A stretch of 64,000 nt of DNA from positions 1 through 64,000 of the forward strand of contig CAJQLW010000002.1 of the NCBI GenBank assembly GCA_905479325.1. The letters are read 5' to 3'. Made by a program: the position numbers and the translations under genes. This document shows positions 39,849 to 46,542 of the stretch, in pieces (position 1 is the stretch's first letter; the number at the start of each line of letters is the position of its first letter). Below the pieces are notes generated by a model. That model was not told the DNA's origin, searched no databases, and was given only the letters and a program-made list of their open reading frames with translations. Origin of the DNA: an uncultured Flavobacteriales bacterium. GTDB lineage: Bacteria > Bacteroidota > Bacteroidia > Flavobacteriales_E > Vicingaceae.

Positions 39849-40916
39849 TTATTCCGAAATCCTAAAAACAACACTTTTAACAGCCTTTAAATTCTTCCCT
39901 TCTTTTACTTCTTCGAGCAATAAATGTTGAGCTTCTGGCAGTTCAAAAACTTCCTTCATGTTTCGTAATGCACCCGCAGGAACTTGTTTTTCCAATAGCA
40001 GTTCCATTAACTCGGATCTATTAAAAGCAGCAATTGCTTTTTCTAACATTTGAGCCAATTCAACACGATGTTGAATTCTAGATTGATTGCTGTTAAATCT
40101 ATCGTTAGTGATCAGATCTTCGCTATACAATACCTTGCACAGGTTTTTAAATTGAGAATTACTGCCAATCGCAAGTACAATTTGTTTTCCGTCTTTGCAG
40201 GTAAATAATTCTCCGTAAGGTGCAATATTCGGATGAAGCGTTCCCATGGGTTGAGCAATGTGCCCTCCCATGAGCCAATTGGTTGCTTGATTTGCCAAAG
40301 AGGCTAGTGCGGCGTCTATCAAAGAGACCGACACTTTTATTGCTTTTGGTTTTTGTTGAAATTCTAGCAATGCAAGAAGCAAACCTTCTTTTAAATGATG
40401 TGCAGCTAAAAGATCAATTAGAGCAACTGGCATTTTACATAATTCGCCGTTTGCCGTTCCACTCATGCTCAAAAAGCCGCTTTCTGCTTGTAAAACAACA
40501 TCGTAAGCGGTTCTATTCACTGAGCCAAAACCTGTAATTTCTCCGTATATAATTTTGTGATTGTATGCTTTTAACGCGTCGAAATCTAATCCCAACTTTT
40601 GTGCATCACCTGGTTTAAAGTTGGCAATAACAATGTCTGCTGTTTTAATTTCTTGAAAAAGTTTACTACGGTCTTGGTCATCTTTCAAGTCCATGAACCA
40701 ACTTTCTTTGCCGGTATTTACAGAACTGTAATAGGCAGAGTACGGATGAGTTTTATCTTCACTTGCTAACTTCCAACTTCTAGTCACATCACCTCCTGTA
40801 TTTTTATTTTCAATTTTAATGACTGTTGCGCCAAGTTCTGCAAAAAATAAACCTACTGAAGGCCCTGCTAGTACACTTGCTAGTTCAATGATTTTTAGAT
40901 GCTGAAATGGCTTCAT
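39849..40916 (-). CDS. CaiB/BaiF-type CoA transferase
   Basis: This protein of about 355 residues is a family III CoA transferase, moving CoA between carboxylic acids. It begins LKIIELASVLAGPSVG, contains the donor-binding NTGKESWFMDLK and the region AYDVVLQAESG where the catalytic Asp is expected, and ends in the usual domain-swapped C-terminal part. An upstream in-frame ATG at 40982 lies inside the preceding methyltransferase gene. The start at 40916 overlaps that gene's stop as ATGA, the normal sign of translational coupling. The substrate acid is unknown. Confidence 0.85.
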   Translation of the reverse strand: MKPFQHLKIIELASVLAGPSVGLFFAELGATVIKIENKNTGGDVTRSWKLASEDKTHPYSAYYSSVNTGKESWFMDLKDDQDRSKLFQEIKTADIVIANFKPGDAQKLGLDFDALKAYNHKIIYGEITGFGSVNRTAYDVVLQAESGFLSMSGTANGELCKMPVALIDLLAAHHLKEGLLLALLEFQQKPKAIKVSVSLIDAALASLANQATNWLMGGHIAQPMGTLHPNIAPYGELFTCKDGKQIVLAIGSNSQFKNLCKVLYSEDLITNDRFNSNQSRIQHRVELAQMLEKAIAAFNRSELMELLLEKQVPAGALRNMKEVFELPEAQHLLLEEVKEGKNLKAVKSVVFRISE

Positions 40917-41797
40917 TTTGTAGTAGTTATCAATCCGTATTTCCACAAGCCTGCATCTAAGCTGCTTAGCAAATGATAGCACATTTTGGTATTTGCCTCT
41001 TGTGTTTTTGAAAAACGCTTTCCAACCATTCTGTGAACAAAGTTGTAGGCTGCCGCTGCGTAATAAAACTTTCTTAATCGAACAATGCTCGGCCGAATGC
41101 GAGGTGTTTCATCAATGTAAATGATATTTGAAAATCCAAGCTCCTTAAGGTTTTCTCGGTATTGTTTTTCAGTATCAAGGCTAAGTACTTTACAGCCGTT
41201 GAATGCATCTGTATATAACGATTTATATTCCTTAGCATTCAACTCGTCTTTTCCTTGTAAGTTTTCTGCCAAAGCAATTCTACCATTTGGTTTTAAAAGT
41301 CGCTTAGCTTCTTGTAAAAAAGCCATTTTAGGTTCTGCATAGCAAATGCTTTCCATTCCTGTAATTAGTGTAAAGCTTTCATCATTAAAAGTGGTATTGG
41401 TATAATCCATTACCTCAAACTTGATCAAATGGTCAACACCTTCTCTTTTGGCATTGTTGTTCGCTTTATCAGCCTGATGTGGTGTGAGTGTAATACCAAC
41501 TCCTGTGCAGCCGATCTTTTTTGCAAAGTGAATTAAGGTGCCACCAACACCACAACCAGCATCCAAAACATGGTCCTGTTTTTTAAGATTTGCAATTTGC
41601 ATCATCTCATTGTTCAAGTTGATCAGTGCCTCACTTAACTTTTTGGTTTCTTTATTCCAAATACCTAAATTAAGCTGCATGTTTTGATCCATTCCCCATG
41701 CATCACGGTAAGCATTATCGCATTCTTCGTAATAGCTTACAATTGCTTTTTGCTGTTGTTCCCAACTGCTATTTTTAAGATTTTTATCGTCTTTCAC
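40913..41797 (-). CDS. SAM-dependent methyltransferase (gamma-TMT/cyclopropane-synthase-like group)
   Basis: This 294-residue methyltransferase has motif I VLDAGCGVGGTLIHFAKK (about 75-92), which fits the sterol/tocopherol/glycine methyltransferase group. A motif II-like segment GVGITLTPHQ and post-I GMESICYAEP follow. The GTG start at 41797 is preceded by a TAGATTTG box at 41817-41824. The downstream CoA transferase is coupled through an ATGA overlap, so both act in one pathway, possibly lipid or small-molecule modification. The substrate is not known. Confidence 0.85.
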   Translation of the reverse strand: MKDDKNLKNSSWEQQQKAIVSYYEECDNAYRDAWGMDQNMQLNLGIWNKETKKLSEALINLNNEMMQIANLKKQDHVLDAGCGVGGTLIHFAKKIGCTGVGITLTPHQADKANNNAKREGVDHLIKFEVMDYTNTTFNDESFTLITGMESICYAEPKMAFLQEAKRLLKPNGRIALAENLQGKDELNAKEYKSLYTDAFNGCKVLSLDTEKQYRENLKELGFSNIIYIDETPRIRPSIVRLRKFYYAAAAYNFVHRMVGKRFSKTQEANTKMCYHLLSSLDAGLWKYGLITTTK

Positions 41798-41844: not shown

Positions 41845-42450
41845 ATGAAAACTACGATATACTTATTCACGATACTTTTAGCATTAGCTGCTTGTAAAGG
41901 CAAAAAGAATGCAGCAGCGAATAAGGAGAAACCGAATGTTGAAACCACAGCAAAAGAGATGACTGATGCGGAACGCGAAGCTGCGATTATTGAGCAAATG
42001 AAAAATGAAAAATTGCCAAATGAAGGAGAAGATTATTACGAAATGGTTGAAAAGGAGATATCTGCAAACGCCATTGCTCGAATTCAACGTACTCCATGTT
42101 TTGGTCGTTGTCCTATATACACCATAACGGTTTATGAAGATGGAGGAGTCGAATATTTTGGTAAGAAATTCGCAGCAAGAGAAGGTCTGTGGGGATCACT
42201 TCTATCACCAGGACAAGTCAAGAAGCTAATGGACTTTGCCAACGAAATAGGCTATTTTGAGATGGAAAATGTTTATGATCAGCAGTCTGTTACCGACGTG
42301 CCTTCAACGATTACTAGTTTAAGAAACGAGGAGGGGTTAAAAACCGTAGTAGACCGATTCAACGCACCTGAGGAACTAATCCGTTTTGAAAAATTCTTCG
42401 ATAGTTTATTTGAGGGATTAGAGTGGATTCCAATAGGTGATGAAGAATAG
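41845..42450 (+). CDS. DUF6438 lipoprotein
   Basis: This 201-residue lipoprotein has a lipobox LAAC (Cys17) and then a Lys/Glu-rich linker. A DUF6438 domain (about 73-190) carries the family signature RIQRTPCFGRCPIYTITVYEDG with its two conserved Cys residues, which may form a disulfide. It probably sits on the outer membrane facing the periplasm. No catalytic residues are known for the family. It is divergent from the methyltransferase gene and convergent with the large propeller/barrel gene (4-base gap). Confidence 0.82.
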   Translation: MKTTIYLFTILLALAACKGKKNAAANKEKPNVETTAKEMTDAEREAAIIEQMKNEKLPNEGEDYYEMVEKEISANAIARIQRTPCFGRCPIYTITVYEDGGVEYFGKKFAAREGLWGSLLSPGQVKKLMDFANEIGYFEMENVYDQQSVTDVPSTITSLRNEEGLKTVVDRFNAPEELIRFEKFFDSLFEGLEWIPIGDEE

Positions 42451-42454
42451 TTGA

Positions 42455-45193
42455 TTAAAACCTGCTTACAGGTATAAAAACTTCAAAAGCAGAATTCTCA
42501 AAGCTTTTTTGAGATAGCAAATAATTGTATCGAATACCAATTGGAACTTGCAAAAGCCGTAAAAGCTTTGTGTCGAAAATTAATTCAACGCCCGTGCTGT
42601 TAAACTCTCGATTAAACCCTTGTGCAATGGAATAATCAAAAAACAAATTCCCACGTATTCTCAACAAGTAAAATATGCCCAATGCTCCTTTGTCAGGATA
42701 GGCAATTGGGAAATGGTAATTTCCGCTGAAACGATACATCTTATTGGTTCTTATGGCTAAAAATCCTCTAGAATAAACGAAACGATCGGTAAATCTGTAG
42801 TTTGTTTCTCCATCCTCAATTCGTAAATCGGCTTCTATTACTAGACTATTATTTCTAAAAACACCCGGTAATGCAACAGCATTTTGTGCTACGAACTGGT
42901 ATTCCTTTTTATTGAACGATCTAATGTCTTGGATTGAAGTTGAAAAGCCCAGTTTGGTGAAAATGTTTTTTCTTGCCTTTAGTTTACTTTGGCGGTAACT
43001 AAAGTTATTTTGAAACAGATGTAAATCAAAATTTTTTAATTCTTGGCTAGTGTTTTGAGTTGAGAGGTAGTTGTATCGGGTAGCTAAGTTTAACCTTCTT
43101 GAGAATGTTTTAGAAGAATAATTCAGCGGTAGGCTGAAGGCTATACCTGTGCTGGTTTCTGTAAAATTGGAATTGCCATTTATTGACCTCTGCTGACTGC
43201 TAAAAAAAGTATTTAAGTGAATGTAATATTTGGCGTAAATGGCCGAAAAATTGAAACTATTCGTTTCTTCGTTAAAATTATAGCCCCAACCGGCTTGCAT
43301 ATCTAGTGTGTTTAATACGTCGTCAGATAGTAGGTTCACCTCAAAATCGGTTTGTGTAATGTTGCTCGACCAAGAATGCATGTTGATGAGGTGTTTTGCC
43401 TTTTTGTAGGGTTCAACAAGTATTGAGTCGGTACTTACTTTGGTTGAAATTTTGGTTGATTCCTTTATAAATTCAGGATTGTAAAAAGGAAGAGCAGATA
43501 GAGGAGGAATCGATTCAAATCTATTCAGGGTATTAGGAATCTCGCTTTTTTGCAATTGAATACCATTTAAGCTGAATTCAGTAAAATAAATTTCCCCTGT
43601 AGCAGGTTGAATGGTAGGGGAGTATCGCCCGGGTCCATTTGAGCTTAATTCTAACAGTGTATCGTTTTGAAGCATATAAATGTTATCTGTGCCATTAAAG
43701 CTTGCTTCGAAGTAGATGTTTCCATTGTGCTCCATCGGTCTACCTAAAATATGATAAGTCCATTTTGTTTTCGCTGTTATTTTGCCAGATTCACTTAATT
43801 CAATAATGGCATTTTTTCCATCAAGATCACGTGCATTTGCTAAAAAAGTACCGGCAGAGGTGGAGCTAATTTCCGTGATGTAATATTGATTGGAATTATC
43901 AAACTTTTTAAGAAGTGTTCCGTCAGCACTCAGCAGGTGAATTTCGTAGGTGCCGTTTGGGTGTACATAGCTACCTAGTATTTTTTTACCATCGTTCGAA
44001 AAGCTAGGGCAGAAATACTTTCCATTCGTGGTTAACTGTTTGAATTCATTTGTTGCCACATTGTAGAGAACAATGTCTTCATAATCAATCCATCCCCATC
44101 GTTTGTCAAAATGAGTTTCAGTTGATAAAAGTTGTTGATTATGGACGTCAAAATAGTTGTTTGAACGAATTCCCGCTTGACGAATTTTTATTCTTTTGCC
44201 GTTCTCAACTTTATAAAATGCAGTGGCATTATCATAGCTTCCGCTTATAAAATAAAGTACGCTGTCCGTGTCAAACTGAGGGTAGTAATAATTGCTTACT
44301 TCGTTCCTTTTGACTGGGAAAACTGATTCATCGAAAATGTCTTCGCTGCTGTTCCACTCTGCACTTAAGTCCACCATCATGTTCTTGTACATTTTTCTAG
44401 AATGTTCGCCACCCTCTTGTTTTAAAGCTCTCGAAAAAGGATAGATTATTCCACTGTACGACGAAGCTCGTTTCAATACGTTTGTCCAATATTCTTCGCC
44501 ATATTTCTCACGACCATAGCGCACCATTAAATACCCTAACCTGTAGTGATCTGGAAGTAAATCTTGAAACGAACCGTTTCGTAATTTATCGTACTTAGGC
44601 GTTTTATTTTCAATCGCAAAAGAGCGAAACTCATTAAAGAAGGTTGGAATTCTCCCCCTTCCTTGTTCGGAGTACTGAGTTTCGACCAAAACAGCATTGC
44701 CCTCAAAAAACCAATTTGGAATAGCGATAGACTGCGCGGCACCCCAAGCCAACTCTCCACCAAACCAATGAAGTATTTTAGACGCTCCGTAATAAGAGTT
44801 GGCGTATTGCAATGCGTGTTGATATTCGTGAACGCCAAGAGTATAATGCCAAGGCAATGTTCCAATTGCATTGTTTACAGGGTAGGGTGTAAGAAAGAAT
44901 TCAGATACAAATGGAGCCAAACCTACATAGCCGTTTGCTTGGGTTGTTGAGTTTTGAAGAATAATATTGAGGTTTCTTCGTTTTACACCAATGTTAATAT
45001 CTAACTGATTCATTCGGATAAATATAGCGGCTACTTTTCTTGCTGTAGCCTCAAGTTCTGGCGAAAAAACAAGGCGGTAGTTCTCATTTTTTAATTGGCT
45101 CCATTGCTTACTTGGTTTGAAGCCACCAAATTCTTGGGCAAAAGAAGGCAGTTTGAAAGCCAACAATAAAACCACTAAAAGAATACGGAACAT
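42455..45193 (-). CDS. Large outer-membrane protein: HExxH domain + beta-propeller + C-terminal barrel
   Basis: This 912-residue protein has a signal peptide (about 1-19). Residues about 25-260 form a gluzincin-like domain with H122-E-Y-Q-H126 and a later W-F-F-E164-G, the arrangement of a zinc metallopeptidase (peptidase MA-like). Residues about 270-570 hold WD40/PD40 TolB-like repeats. The last 290 residues alternate polar and hydrophobic strands and end VFIPVSRF, as outer-membrane barrels do. A start at 45238 is possible, but 45193 gives a clean signal peptide and avoids overlap with the divergent bcp gene. Confidence 0.8.
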   Translation of the reverse strand: MFRILLVVLLLAFKLPSFAQEFGGFKPSKQWSQLKNENYRLVFSPELEATARKVAAIFIRMNQLDINIGVKRRNLNIILQNSTTQANGYVGLAPFVSEFFLTPYPVNNAIGTLPWHYTLGVHEYQHALQYANSYYGASKILHWFGGELAWGAAQSIAIPNWFFEGNAVLVETQYSEQGRGRIPTFFNEFRSFAIENKTPKYDKLRNGSFQDLLPDHYRLGYLMVRYGREKYGEEYWTNVLKRASSYSGIIYPFSRALKQEGGEHSRKMYKNMMVDLSAEWNSSEDIFDESVFPVKRNEVSNYYYPQFDTDSVLYFISGSYDNATAFYKVENGKRIKIRQAGIRSNNYFDVHNQQLLSTETHFDKRWGWIDYEDIVLYNVATNEFKQLTTNGKYFCPSFSNDGKKILGSYVHPNGTYEIHLLSADGTLLKKFDNSNQYYITEISSTSAGTFLANARDLDGKNAIIELSESGKITAKTKWTYHILGRPMEHNGNIYFEASFNGTDNIYMLQNDTLLELSSNGPGRYSPTIQPATGEIYFTEFSLNGIQLQKSEIPNTLNRFESIPPLSALPFYNPEFIKESTKISTKVSTDSILVEPYKKAKHLINMHSWSSNITQTDFEVNLLSDDVLNTLDMQAGWGYNFNEETNSFNFSAIYAKYYIHLNTFFSSQQRSINGNSNFTETSTGIAFSLPLNYSSKTFSRRLNLATRYNYLSTQNTSQELKNFDLHLFQNNFSYRQSKLKARKNIFTKLGFSTSIQDIRSFNKKEYQFVAQNAVALPGVFRNNSLVIEADLRIEDGETNYRFTDRFVYSRGFLAIRTNKMYRFSGNYHFPIAYPDKGALGIFYLLRIRGNLFFDYSIAQGFNREFNSTGVELIFDTKLLRLLQVPIGIRYNYLLSQKSFENSAFEVFIPVSRF

Positions 45194-45231: not shown

Positions 45232-45687
45232 ATGGCAAAAGAAATTGGCGTTGGAGATGTAATTCCTGAATTTACCTTACCGAATGAAAACAATGAAATG
45301 GTTACCGTTTCAAAATCGGATCAAGAAAAGAGGGTGATCTACTTTTACCCAAAAGATGACACAAAAGTTTGCACGGCTCAGGCCTGTAGTTTTAGAGATT
45401 GGCAAAGTGAGTTGAACGCTTTGGGATACAGGGTGATTGGAATTAGCAGTGATAGCCCATCTAGTCATCAAAAATTTATTGCAAAGCATAATCTTAATTT
45501 TACCTTGTTGAGCGATCAAGGAGGCAAAGTGAGAAAGCAGTTTGGAGCAGCTTCTTTAGTTGGAATTATTCCTTCAAGGAAAACCTTTGTAATTGACGAA
45601 AATGGAACAATAGAATTTATTTACAATGCTCTATTTGAAAGCGAAGAGCATGTGGAAGCGATTAAACAATTTTTAAACAACAAATAA
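45232..45687 (+). CDS. bcp: Peroxiredoxin, Bcp/PrxQ type
   Basis: This 151-residue thiol peroxidase reduces peroxides using thioredoxin. The peroxidatic site is T44-K-V-C47, and a resolving Cys52 lies five residues later, the two-Cys PrxQ arrangement. Residue 43 is Asp (DDTKVC) rather than the more usual aromatic or Met context. The rest of the family pattern (YFYPKDDT, ACSFRD, ISSDSPSSHQKF) is intact. The gene is 9 bases before a lipoprotein hydrolase gene and divergent from the large barrel protein. Confidence 0.92.
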   Translation: MAKEIGVGDVIPEFTLPNENNEMVTVSKSDQEKRVIYFYPKDDTKVCTAQACSFRDWQSELNALGYRVIGISSDSPSSHQKFIAKHNLNFTLLSDQGGKVRKQFGAASLVGIIPSRKTFVIDENGTIEFIYNALFESEEHVEAIKQFLNNK

Positions 45688-45696
45688 ATAAAACAG

Positions 45697-46542
45697 ATGA
45701 AAAAGATTGCAATGAGTGCATTGGTAATGATTGGTTTAATTGCCTGCGGTGGCCCAAAAGAAGAAAAGAAAGCAGATGAAGAAAAGAAAACCGATACGGA
45801 AGCGTTTTCTGAGTTAGCTGATGAAGAAGGGTTTGCTGAAAAACACGATGAGCCACTTGAGATTGAAGTGTATGCCTTAGGTGAAATGAGAAAAGTAGCA
45901 ACAGCAAATGGAGAGGATGCTAACATTTATGTAGTAGAAAAGGAAGGTGCAACAAATTATGTTTTGGTTTTGCACGAATGGTGGGGATTGAACAACCACA
46001 TTATTGGAGAAGCAGACAAGCTTTATGATAAATTGGGTAACGTGAACATTATTGCCTTGGATTTATACGATGGAAAAATGGCAACCGACAGAGAAACTGC
46101 AGGTAAGTATATGCAAGGAGCAGATGAAAATAGAATTAATGACATTGTAATGTCAACAATAAACCAATTACCTGCAGATGCTAAAGTAGCTACAATAGGA
46201 TGGTGCTTTGGAGGAGGATGGTCGCTGAAAACGGCATTAGCAGCAGGTGATAAAACTGTTGCAACAGTAATGTATTATGGAATGCCTGTTGAAGATATTG
46301 AAAAGCTAAAGGAGCTTAATTCAGACGTTTTGTTTGTTTGGCCAATTCAAGATCAGTGGATTAACGAGGAGGTTGTAACAAAGTTTACTGCTAACATGAA
46401 GGCTGCAGAAAAACAACTTGATGTATTAACCTTTGATGCTGACCACGCTTTTGCAAACCCAAGCAGTGAAAAGTTCATAGAAACAGCAGCACAAGAAGCA
46501 AATGCAGCAGCTTTAGCGTATTTGAAAGAAAGATTGAAGTAG
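45697..46542 (+). CDS. Dienelactone hydrolase family lipoprotein
   Basis: This 281-residue protein has a lipobox (LIAC, Cys17), a Lys/Glu-rich linker (about 19-50) and an alpha/beta-hydrolase domain of the dienelactone hydrolase family. The nucleophile is Cys in IGWCFGGGWS. The likely partners are Asp in PIQDQWINEE and His in DADHAFANP. DLH enzymes open lactones of aromatic degradation, but secreted lipoprotein versions have unknown substrates. It is probably cotranscribed with the peroxiredoxin gene. A repeat tract and a terminator follow. Confidence 0.88.
   Translation: MKKIAMSALVMIGLIACGGPKEEKKADEEKKTDTEAFSELADEEGFAEKHDEPLEIEVYALGEMRKVATANGEDANIYVVEKEGATNYVLVLHEWWGLNNHIIGEADKLYDKLGNVNIIALDLYDGKMATDRETAGKYMQGADENRINDIVMSTINQLPADAKVATIGWCFGGGWSLKTALAAGDKTVATVMYYGMPVEDIEKLKELNSDVLFVWPIQDQWINEEVVTKFTANMKAAEKQLDVLTFDADHAFANPSSEKFIETAAQEANAAALAYLKERLK

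Follow-up and report, generated by a model that had tools for sequence, protein, structure and literature searches.

In a contig from an uncultured Flavobacteriales bacterium of the family Vicingaceae (GenBank assembly GCA_905479325.1, contig CAJQLW010000002.1), the stretch of 64,000 nucleotides analysed here (positions 1 to 64,000 of the forward strand, hereafter the window) carries on its minus strand an open reading frame of 912 amino acids, with its ATG at 45193, coding positions 42458–45193 and a stop codon at 42455–42457. The product very probably joins, in one chain, a peptidase-like domain, a TolB-like propeller and an Omp85-type barrel, an anatomy read from predicted structures (Table 1). 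The full-chain AlphaFold2 model, built from a 34-row alignment, is a confident one (mean predicted local distance difference test score, pLDDT, 87.1; predicted template-modelling score 0.87). Inspection by eye suggests a Sec signal peptide, MFRILLVVLLLAFKLPSFA followed by QEF, in which a lipobox cysteine is absent. The chain is the sole match to itself in its own genome (2.71 Mb, 92% complete).

Predicted domain anatomy of the 912-residue chain

The chain contains a single HExxH motif, H122-E123-Y-Q-H126, and 38 residues past H126 stands E164, in the context N-W-F-F-E164-G. When the letters of the chain are shuffled 20,000 times, 1.6% of the products contain an HExxH, and the motif is therefore weak evidence when taken by itself; its conservation in the family carries the case. 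Our alignment comprises the window chain and 33 others that are 22–67% identical to it, namely 10 relatives from close genomes, one of them truncated N-terminally where its contig ends yet retaining the motif, and 23 further matches from the class. All 34 chains have exactly one HExxH and a constant 38-residue spacing to the glutamate of [WY][FY]xEGxA. H122, E123, H126 and E164 are invariant, as are P94, E98, Q129, P159, G165, A167, E171, T172 and the run G178-R-G-R181, and mean column identity is 52% in the peptidase domain versus 33% in the barrel.

Modelled alone, the N-terminal domain reaches a pLDDT of 82.3. Among the matches listed by fold comparison (VIA), those of this domain are peptidases of families M9, M30 and M1: the best is the M9 collagenase 8jt1 (Z 14.1, 216 residues aligned, 3.3 Å), with the M30 enzyme lugdulysin, 7bb8, at Z 13.7 (224 aligned, 4.7 Å) and M1 aminopeptidases at Z about 11. 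The best Foldseek match is 4ar8 (E 3.3e-4, TMq 0.48), in a search that gave only two rows at E ≤0.001. Because helical models can reach a VIA Z of up to about 13 by chance, the weight of the peptidase-fold assignment rests on the top rows together with the motif. The predicted domain thus has two features of gluzincins, an HExxH in one helix with a downstream glutamate in a second, and the fold of peptidase MA. An earlier sequence-only reading had proposed a gluzincin site made of the same residues and had looked to the peptidase MA fold for support, and the invariant motif, its spacing and the fold matches agree with it on both counts. The enzymes found by fold differ from the window protein in the company that their domains keep, and none of them matches it by sequence. 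Residues 122–129 (window 44807–44830) read HExxHxxQ. An HExxHxxQ-E signature is printed for PVC-metallopeptidases in the open text of PMC3482391, and we considered a toxin-type metallopeptidase on account of this likeness but rejected it, as the Pfam scan returned no match to such a family.

The propeller is recognized by fold more readily than by sequence. In VIA it matches TolB entries at Z 19.9–21.1 over 227–238 residues, with 13 TolB-titled rows among those listed; for example, TolB 1crz aligns at Z 21.0 (230 residues, 2.7 Å). Propellers other than TolB follow close behind (7x2n at Z 19.5, within 2 Z of TolB), so the likeness to TolB stands only slightly above likeness to the fold at large. 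The chain shares this fold with TolB but differs from it by having no Pfam match to TolB_N and by scoring far below the NCBIfam equivalog cut-offs for TolB (18.3 versus 428 bits and 14.6 versus 343 bits). The PD40/WD40 repeats named in the sequence-only reading fall just short of recognition by Pfam (PD40 at 20.4 bits, cut-off 20.9), whereas the propeller that they implied is borne out by the TolB fold match.

The C-terminal barrel is of Omp85 type by its modelled fold. Its 16 strands were counted over residues 605–906 of the predicted model, leaving out a three-residue strand at 835–837. In VIA it aligns with BamA 8xnb (Z 19.5, 291 residues, 4.0 Å), with the BamA of F. johnsoniae, 9n2d (Z 19.3, 280 residues, 3.7 Å), and with Sam50 and TamA at Z 18–18.7. 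The top Foldseek rows are likewise BamA and Sam50, at E about 1e-6, with whole-chain TM-scores that are low because the barrel alone aligns. The long loop that follows barrel strand 11 occupies the position of loop 6, and within it G810 is kept in 34/34 chains, R809 in 29/34 and a phenylalanine or tyrosine at 811 in 31/34; in place of the V/I that precedes the arginine, this family has S, P, A or T. In place and kind, we take R809-G810-F811 to be the Omp85 loop-6 motif (V/I)RG(F/Y), which lies between strands 11 and 12. The chain terminates in ...VSRF, and a C-terminal phenylalanine occurs in at least 21 of the 34 aligned rows, a lower bound because the rows were trimmed to their matched part. 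A C-terminal barrel with a final phenylalanine had also been noticed from the sequence alone, and both observations hold in the model and the translation.

Table 1. Features of the locus, with residue numbers of the 912-residue chain where they apply and positions in the window.
Feature	Residues	Position	Strand	Basis
Whole coding sequence: metallopeptidase-like domain, TolB-like propeller and Omp85-type barrel	1-912	42455..45193	-	Open reading frame and translation
Probable Sec signal peptide	1-19	45137..45193	-	Judged by eye from sequence
Gluzincin-like peptidase domain	20-284	44342..45136	-	AlphaFold2 models; fold matches to M9, M30 and M1 peptidases
H122-E-Y-Q-H126, within predicted helix 115-133	122-126	44816..44830	-	34/34 aligned chains; AlphaFold2 helix
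E164, proposed third zinc ligand, predicted helix 160-174	164	44702..44704	-	34/34 aligned chains; spacing of 38
TolB-like beta-propeller	285-557	43523..44341	-	VIA fold comparison; PD40 just under cut-off
16-stranded Omp85-type barrel with C-terminal Phe	604-912	42458..43384	-	AlphaFold2 strand list; VIA matches
Long loop joining barrel strands 11 and 12, at the place of loop 6 and carrying R809-G810-F811	795-817	42743..42811	-	AlphaFold2 model and alignment
AhpC/TSA (Bcp-like) peroxiredoxin, divergent neighbour		45232..45687	+	AhpC-TSA, E 3e-35
Lipoprotein-like protein with DUF6438, convergent neighbour		41845..42450	+	Pfam

Relatives, spread and gene neighbourhood

Homologues occur in 11 of 41 close genomes (the bacterium's own included) and in five of the six genomes of its genus; the only sampled genome of the genus without a match, G005, is 87% complete and split into 520 contigs, which makes its absence there uncertain. 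In the wider searches, which scored at most two candidates per genome, an 11-row profile matched 92 of 395 genomes of the class. A single match covering at least 800 of the 924 profile positions was found in 55 of the 395 (own included), 25 of which lie outside the HExxH check, and a further genome, G312, has two match pieces within one frame of 906 amino acids; most other class matches are confined to the propeller. At the level of the phylum, the 34-row profile matched 218 of 395 genomes, many of them partially or in the propeller only. A profile of the N-terminal domain alone matched 160 of 296 Bacteroidota genomes, and each of these matches, among those listed, sits in an open frame of at least 933 amino acids. 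Judged by frame length, the domain was therefore not seen on its own among the matches listed. The layout, which had been called unusual when only the sequence had been read, is thus widespread across Bacteroidota and not rare, and a propeller–Omp85 subfamily has been in the literature since 2014.

More divergent members fall into two further subfamilies, both of which keep the HExxH...EGxA arrangement in the 13 of 20 loci that were read (left out were L101, L104, L105, L108, L110, L113 and L117). One has the form HE(L/Q)xHA...EGxA in 7/7 sequences, with 36–37 residues from the second histidine to the glutamate; its N-terminal domain aligns with that of the window family in hhalign at 99.9% (E 1e-34), and three scanned members gave no match to a Pfam peptidase model. 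The other, hereafter the third subfamily, has the form HE(F/Y)TH(I/M)...EGxA in 6/6 sequences with a spacing of 56 residues, and aligns at 99.2% (E 1e-19), compared with 0.1% for an unrelated control. Pfam finds PD40 in 5/5 of its scanned members and Peptidase_MA_2 above cut-off in 4/5.

The window's own genome also holds a relative of 1,074 amino acids without an HExxH (G000:C35:71315-74539, minus strand, which is L126:1816-5040, minus strand). Matches within its frame all lie below cut-off (PF01103 at E 6.5e-4, Peptidase_MA_2 at E 0.08, TolB at E 4e-11), and the whole chain, scanned against Pfam at E 0.1, gave no match. In this relative and 10 homologues, from 10 of 19 loci read, no HExxH occurs in the N-terminal 300 residues (0/11), and none of the 11 has the glutamate that precedes the helix glycine, one of them having an aspartate instead. 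In hhalign, the domain without HExxH aligns with that of the third subfamily at 93.7% (E 2e-7) and poorly, at 9%, with that of the window family. We infer that the 1,074-residue protein is a pseudo-peptidase. Of 119 genomes of the class, 107 gave a match to it at E 1e-10 or below, though the weakest of these matches may be other subfamilies, and in 40 of the 107 (own included) one piece covers at least 1,000 of its 1,074 positions; it is a widespread and apparently uncharacterized protein of the class. The motif can therefore be lost from this layout, yet it was never seen lost in the window family.

Neighbouring genes were judged by eye, in flanks mostly of 1.5 kb or less. As described in the sequence-only reading, a peroxiredoxin is encoded divergently, starting at 45232. 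The order DUF6438 gene, protease-like gene and Bcp peroxiredoxin recurs in 5 of 11 relatives (G001, G002, G004, G012 and G019) and is missing from G007, G010, G035, G038, G314 and G375. We considered a functional link to the peroxiredoxin and rejected it, since all five relatives with this order carry members of the window's own family, in which shared order reads as inherited order; a peroxiredoxin kept in five of 11 is not a general partner. Downstream of the peroxiredoxin lies a dienelactone-hydrolase-like protein (Pfam DLH; 45697-46542, plus strand), which by eye also occurs at L002, L003, L007 and L014. On the other side, 39849-41797 (minus strand) holds two overlapping reading frames for a methyltransferase and, by eye, a CoA-transferase-like protein, and at L014 a similar overlapping pair adjoins the DUF6438 gene. 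A search of 72,556 plasmid records gave no match to the 912-residue protein at E 1e-3, and scans for promoters (11 sites versus 8.6 expected) and terminators (2 versus 2.2 expected) stayed near expectation. By sequence, the single weak match of the chain to a solved structure is to a dynein tail (E 0.49), which we took as chance.

Relation to described Omp85 proteins and envelope peptidases

The closest described group is the WD40-Omp85 subfamily defined by Heinz and Lithgow in 2014 and likened by them to a BamA–BamB fusion (PMC4104836). Like the window protein, its members have an N-terminal TolB-like propeller and an Omp85 barrel without POTRA domains; unlike it, they are given no HExxH peptidase in the main text of that paper, whose classification goes by the barrel and takes in groups that lack POTRA. 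By its domain layout, as distinct from any published cluster, the 912-residue protein is to be placed in or beside this subfamily. A stricter definition of Omp85 proteins, as a barrel plus POTRA, would leave the chain outside. An HExxH domain in WD40-Omp85 proteins was not found described in the open text of PubMed Central, a scope that takes in neither subscription papers nor supplements. Thus the propeller–Omp85 layout is already known, and the conserved HExxH domain ahead of the propeller was not found in print.

PF00149 is a family of phosphoesterases, not of HExxH peptidases. This bears on the 'Metallo' subfamily of the same classification, which resembles the window protein in combining an Omp85 barrel with an N-terminal enzyme that is called a metalloprotease, but for which the text cites PF00149, named Metallophos in Pfam, a family that the window protein does not match (PMC4104836). 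Later texts keep speaking of Omp85 metalloproteases (PMC11014939, PMC11116518), and in 2024 the subfamilies with N-terminal metalloprotease or WD40-like domains were listed as not well characterized (PMC11116518). PlpD, of the patatin–Omp85 type, also has an enzyme domain ahead of its Omp85 barrel; it differs in that the enzyme is patatin-like, a POTRA is present and the protein is a homodimer, and the open text on it mentions no propeller (PMC11116518). With its peptidase-like fold, no Pfam patatin match and no POTRA, the 912-residue chain does not belong to type Vd, the patatin type.

BepA is a separate chain of peptidase family M48 and carries TPR repeats. It offers a functional parallel to the role proposed below, being a periplasmic zinc peptidase that acts on a protein assembling at an Omp85 barrel: it either promotes LptD or degrades it, probably at the BAM complex (PMC8423444). 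Two other M48 metalloproteases have been linked to the biogenesis of outer-membrane proteins (PMC13067283). Because of its name we also considered BamP, a part of the BAM complex from F. johnsoniae for which a structure was reported in 2025, and rejected it, as the words 'peptidase', 'propeller' and 'HExxH' are absent from the main text of that report (PMC12611786).

Proposed function and competing readings

Propellers of the TolB and BamB kind bind proteins, and Omp85 barrels keep both ends of the chain, N-termini included, in the periplasm. A barrel that is Omp85-type by fold therefore makes a periplasmic N-terminus more likely than a surface one. We infer zinc binding, proteolysis and periplasmic location on these grounds and from the invariant motif, and regard an active periplasmic peptidase as probable. 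In the mechanism that we propose, the barrel would anchor the propeller and a gluzincin-type zinc metallopeptidase on the periplasmic side of the outer membrane, and the propeller, a platform for binding proteins like those of TolB and BamB, would hand the peptidase envelope proteins that are nascent or damaged. A single chain could then do what BepA and BAM do together, with outer-membrane proteins or lipoproteins being processed or passed through proteolytic quality control. A quality-control role is a possibility that we raise with some reserve, its class of substrates being a guess, and the statement as a whole, an outer-membrane-anchored periplasmic zinc peptidase with a propeller that acts on envelope proteins in quality control or processing, is likewise put forward tentatively.

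Several results weigh against this proposal. The window protein matches no Pfam peptidase model, Peptidase_MA_2 (PF13485) included, and does not match PF01103 (Omp85) in Pfam; the profile of the peptidase domain finds no solved chain by sequence at E up to 10, and the barrel profile finds none either. In hhalign, the window barrels align only weakly with the BamA barrels of relatives (6.6%, with negative controls at 0.1% and 1.0%). Barrels of the third subfamily align with the window barrels at 39% (E 3e-4) and with the BamA barrels at 70% (E 4e-5), and so form, at the level of these profiles, a bridge between the two. With sequence profiles this weak, it is the fold and the topology that carry the Omp85 assignment. 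BamA uses its POTRA domains for partners, and the AlphaFold2 model of the window protein has no POTRA, with short elements only between the end of the propeller at 557 and the start of the barrel at 604. No bam or tam genes were seen among the neighbours read. Finally, the protein is patchy in its distribution, with a long match in 55 of the 395 genomes of the class, and this speaks against a role that is both general and essential.

If the barrel instead passed the propeller and peptidase to the outside, the protein could be a surface protease that digests external protein or processes surface proteins. M9 collagenases, which are among the nearest peptidase folds, are secreted enzymes, and the sequence-only reading proposed a surface or periplasmic protease. 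This reading has precedent in that Heinz and Lithgow raised a surface option for enzyme–Omp85 fusions, which had once been proposed for the patatin-type Omp85 (PMC4104836). By contrast, PlpD was found to have its enzyme domain in the periplasm exclusively (PMC11116518). For a barrel of 16 strands, a propeller and about 265 residues of folded peptidase would also be a large load, and together with the periplasmic N-termini of Omp85 proteins this makes a surface protease quite improbable; of the earlier proposal of a self-anchored protein, the outer-membrane anchor is supported and the periplasmic side is favoured over the surface. A surface protease that would sense ligands through its propeller, as that proposal allowed, is likewise disfavoured by the Omp85 topology and by PlpD.

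A function of cell-wall or Tol–Pal type, in which the propeller would bind Pal-like or peptidoglycan-linked partners and the peptidase would trim lipoproteins or wall-linked peptides, gains from the propeller's best matches, which are TolB entries and include TolB/Pal complexes, and from the lipoprotein-like DUF6438 gene that adjoins in 5/11 relatives. We consider it unlikely, since the equivalog scores for TolB fall so far under their cut-offs, no Tol-Pal genes were seen next to the protease-like gene, and the nearness in Z of other propellers speaks for a likeness that is one of fold more than of family. About as unlikely, in our judgement, is a scaffold or assembly factor that uses the peptidase fold for binding and not for cleavage, with the barrel doing the work as in BamA or TamA. 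The widespread relative of similar layout without HExxH (0/11) indicates that the layout can serve without catalysis; against this, the catalytic set of the window family is invariant in 34/34 chains and its peptidase domain is better conserved than its barrel.

More broadly, the window protein and its relative without HExxH could belong to a Bacteroidota class of Omp85 machines with a built-in protease arm, in which an active form, patchy in its distribution, is paired with a protease-dead form that is near-universal in the class sample. The dead form would serve the envelope as a core factor, with the active form as the partner that does the proteolysis, and the two would do in one-chain units the work of the separate BamB, BepA and BamA of E. 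coli. This idea is speculative and, as we see it, fairly unlikely to hold. The present results give one large Omp85 group a candidate enzyme that can be tested at defined residues, and the relative without HExxH offers a natural comparison from within one genome. In this layout a single molecule would combine a protease with a barrel of the assembly type, and proteolysis at such a barrel, if demonstrated, would be a new way to couple quality control to outer-membrane assembly.

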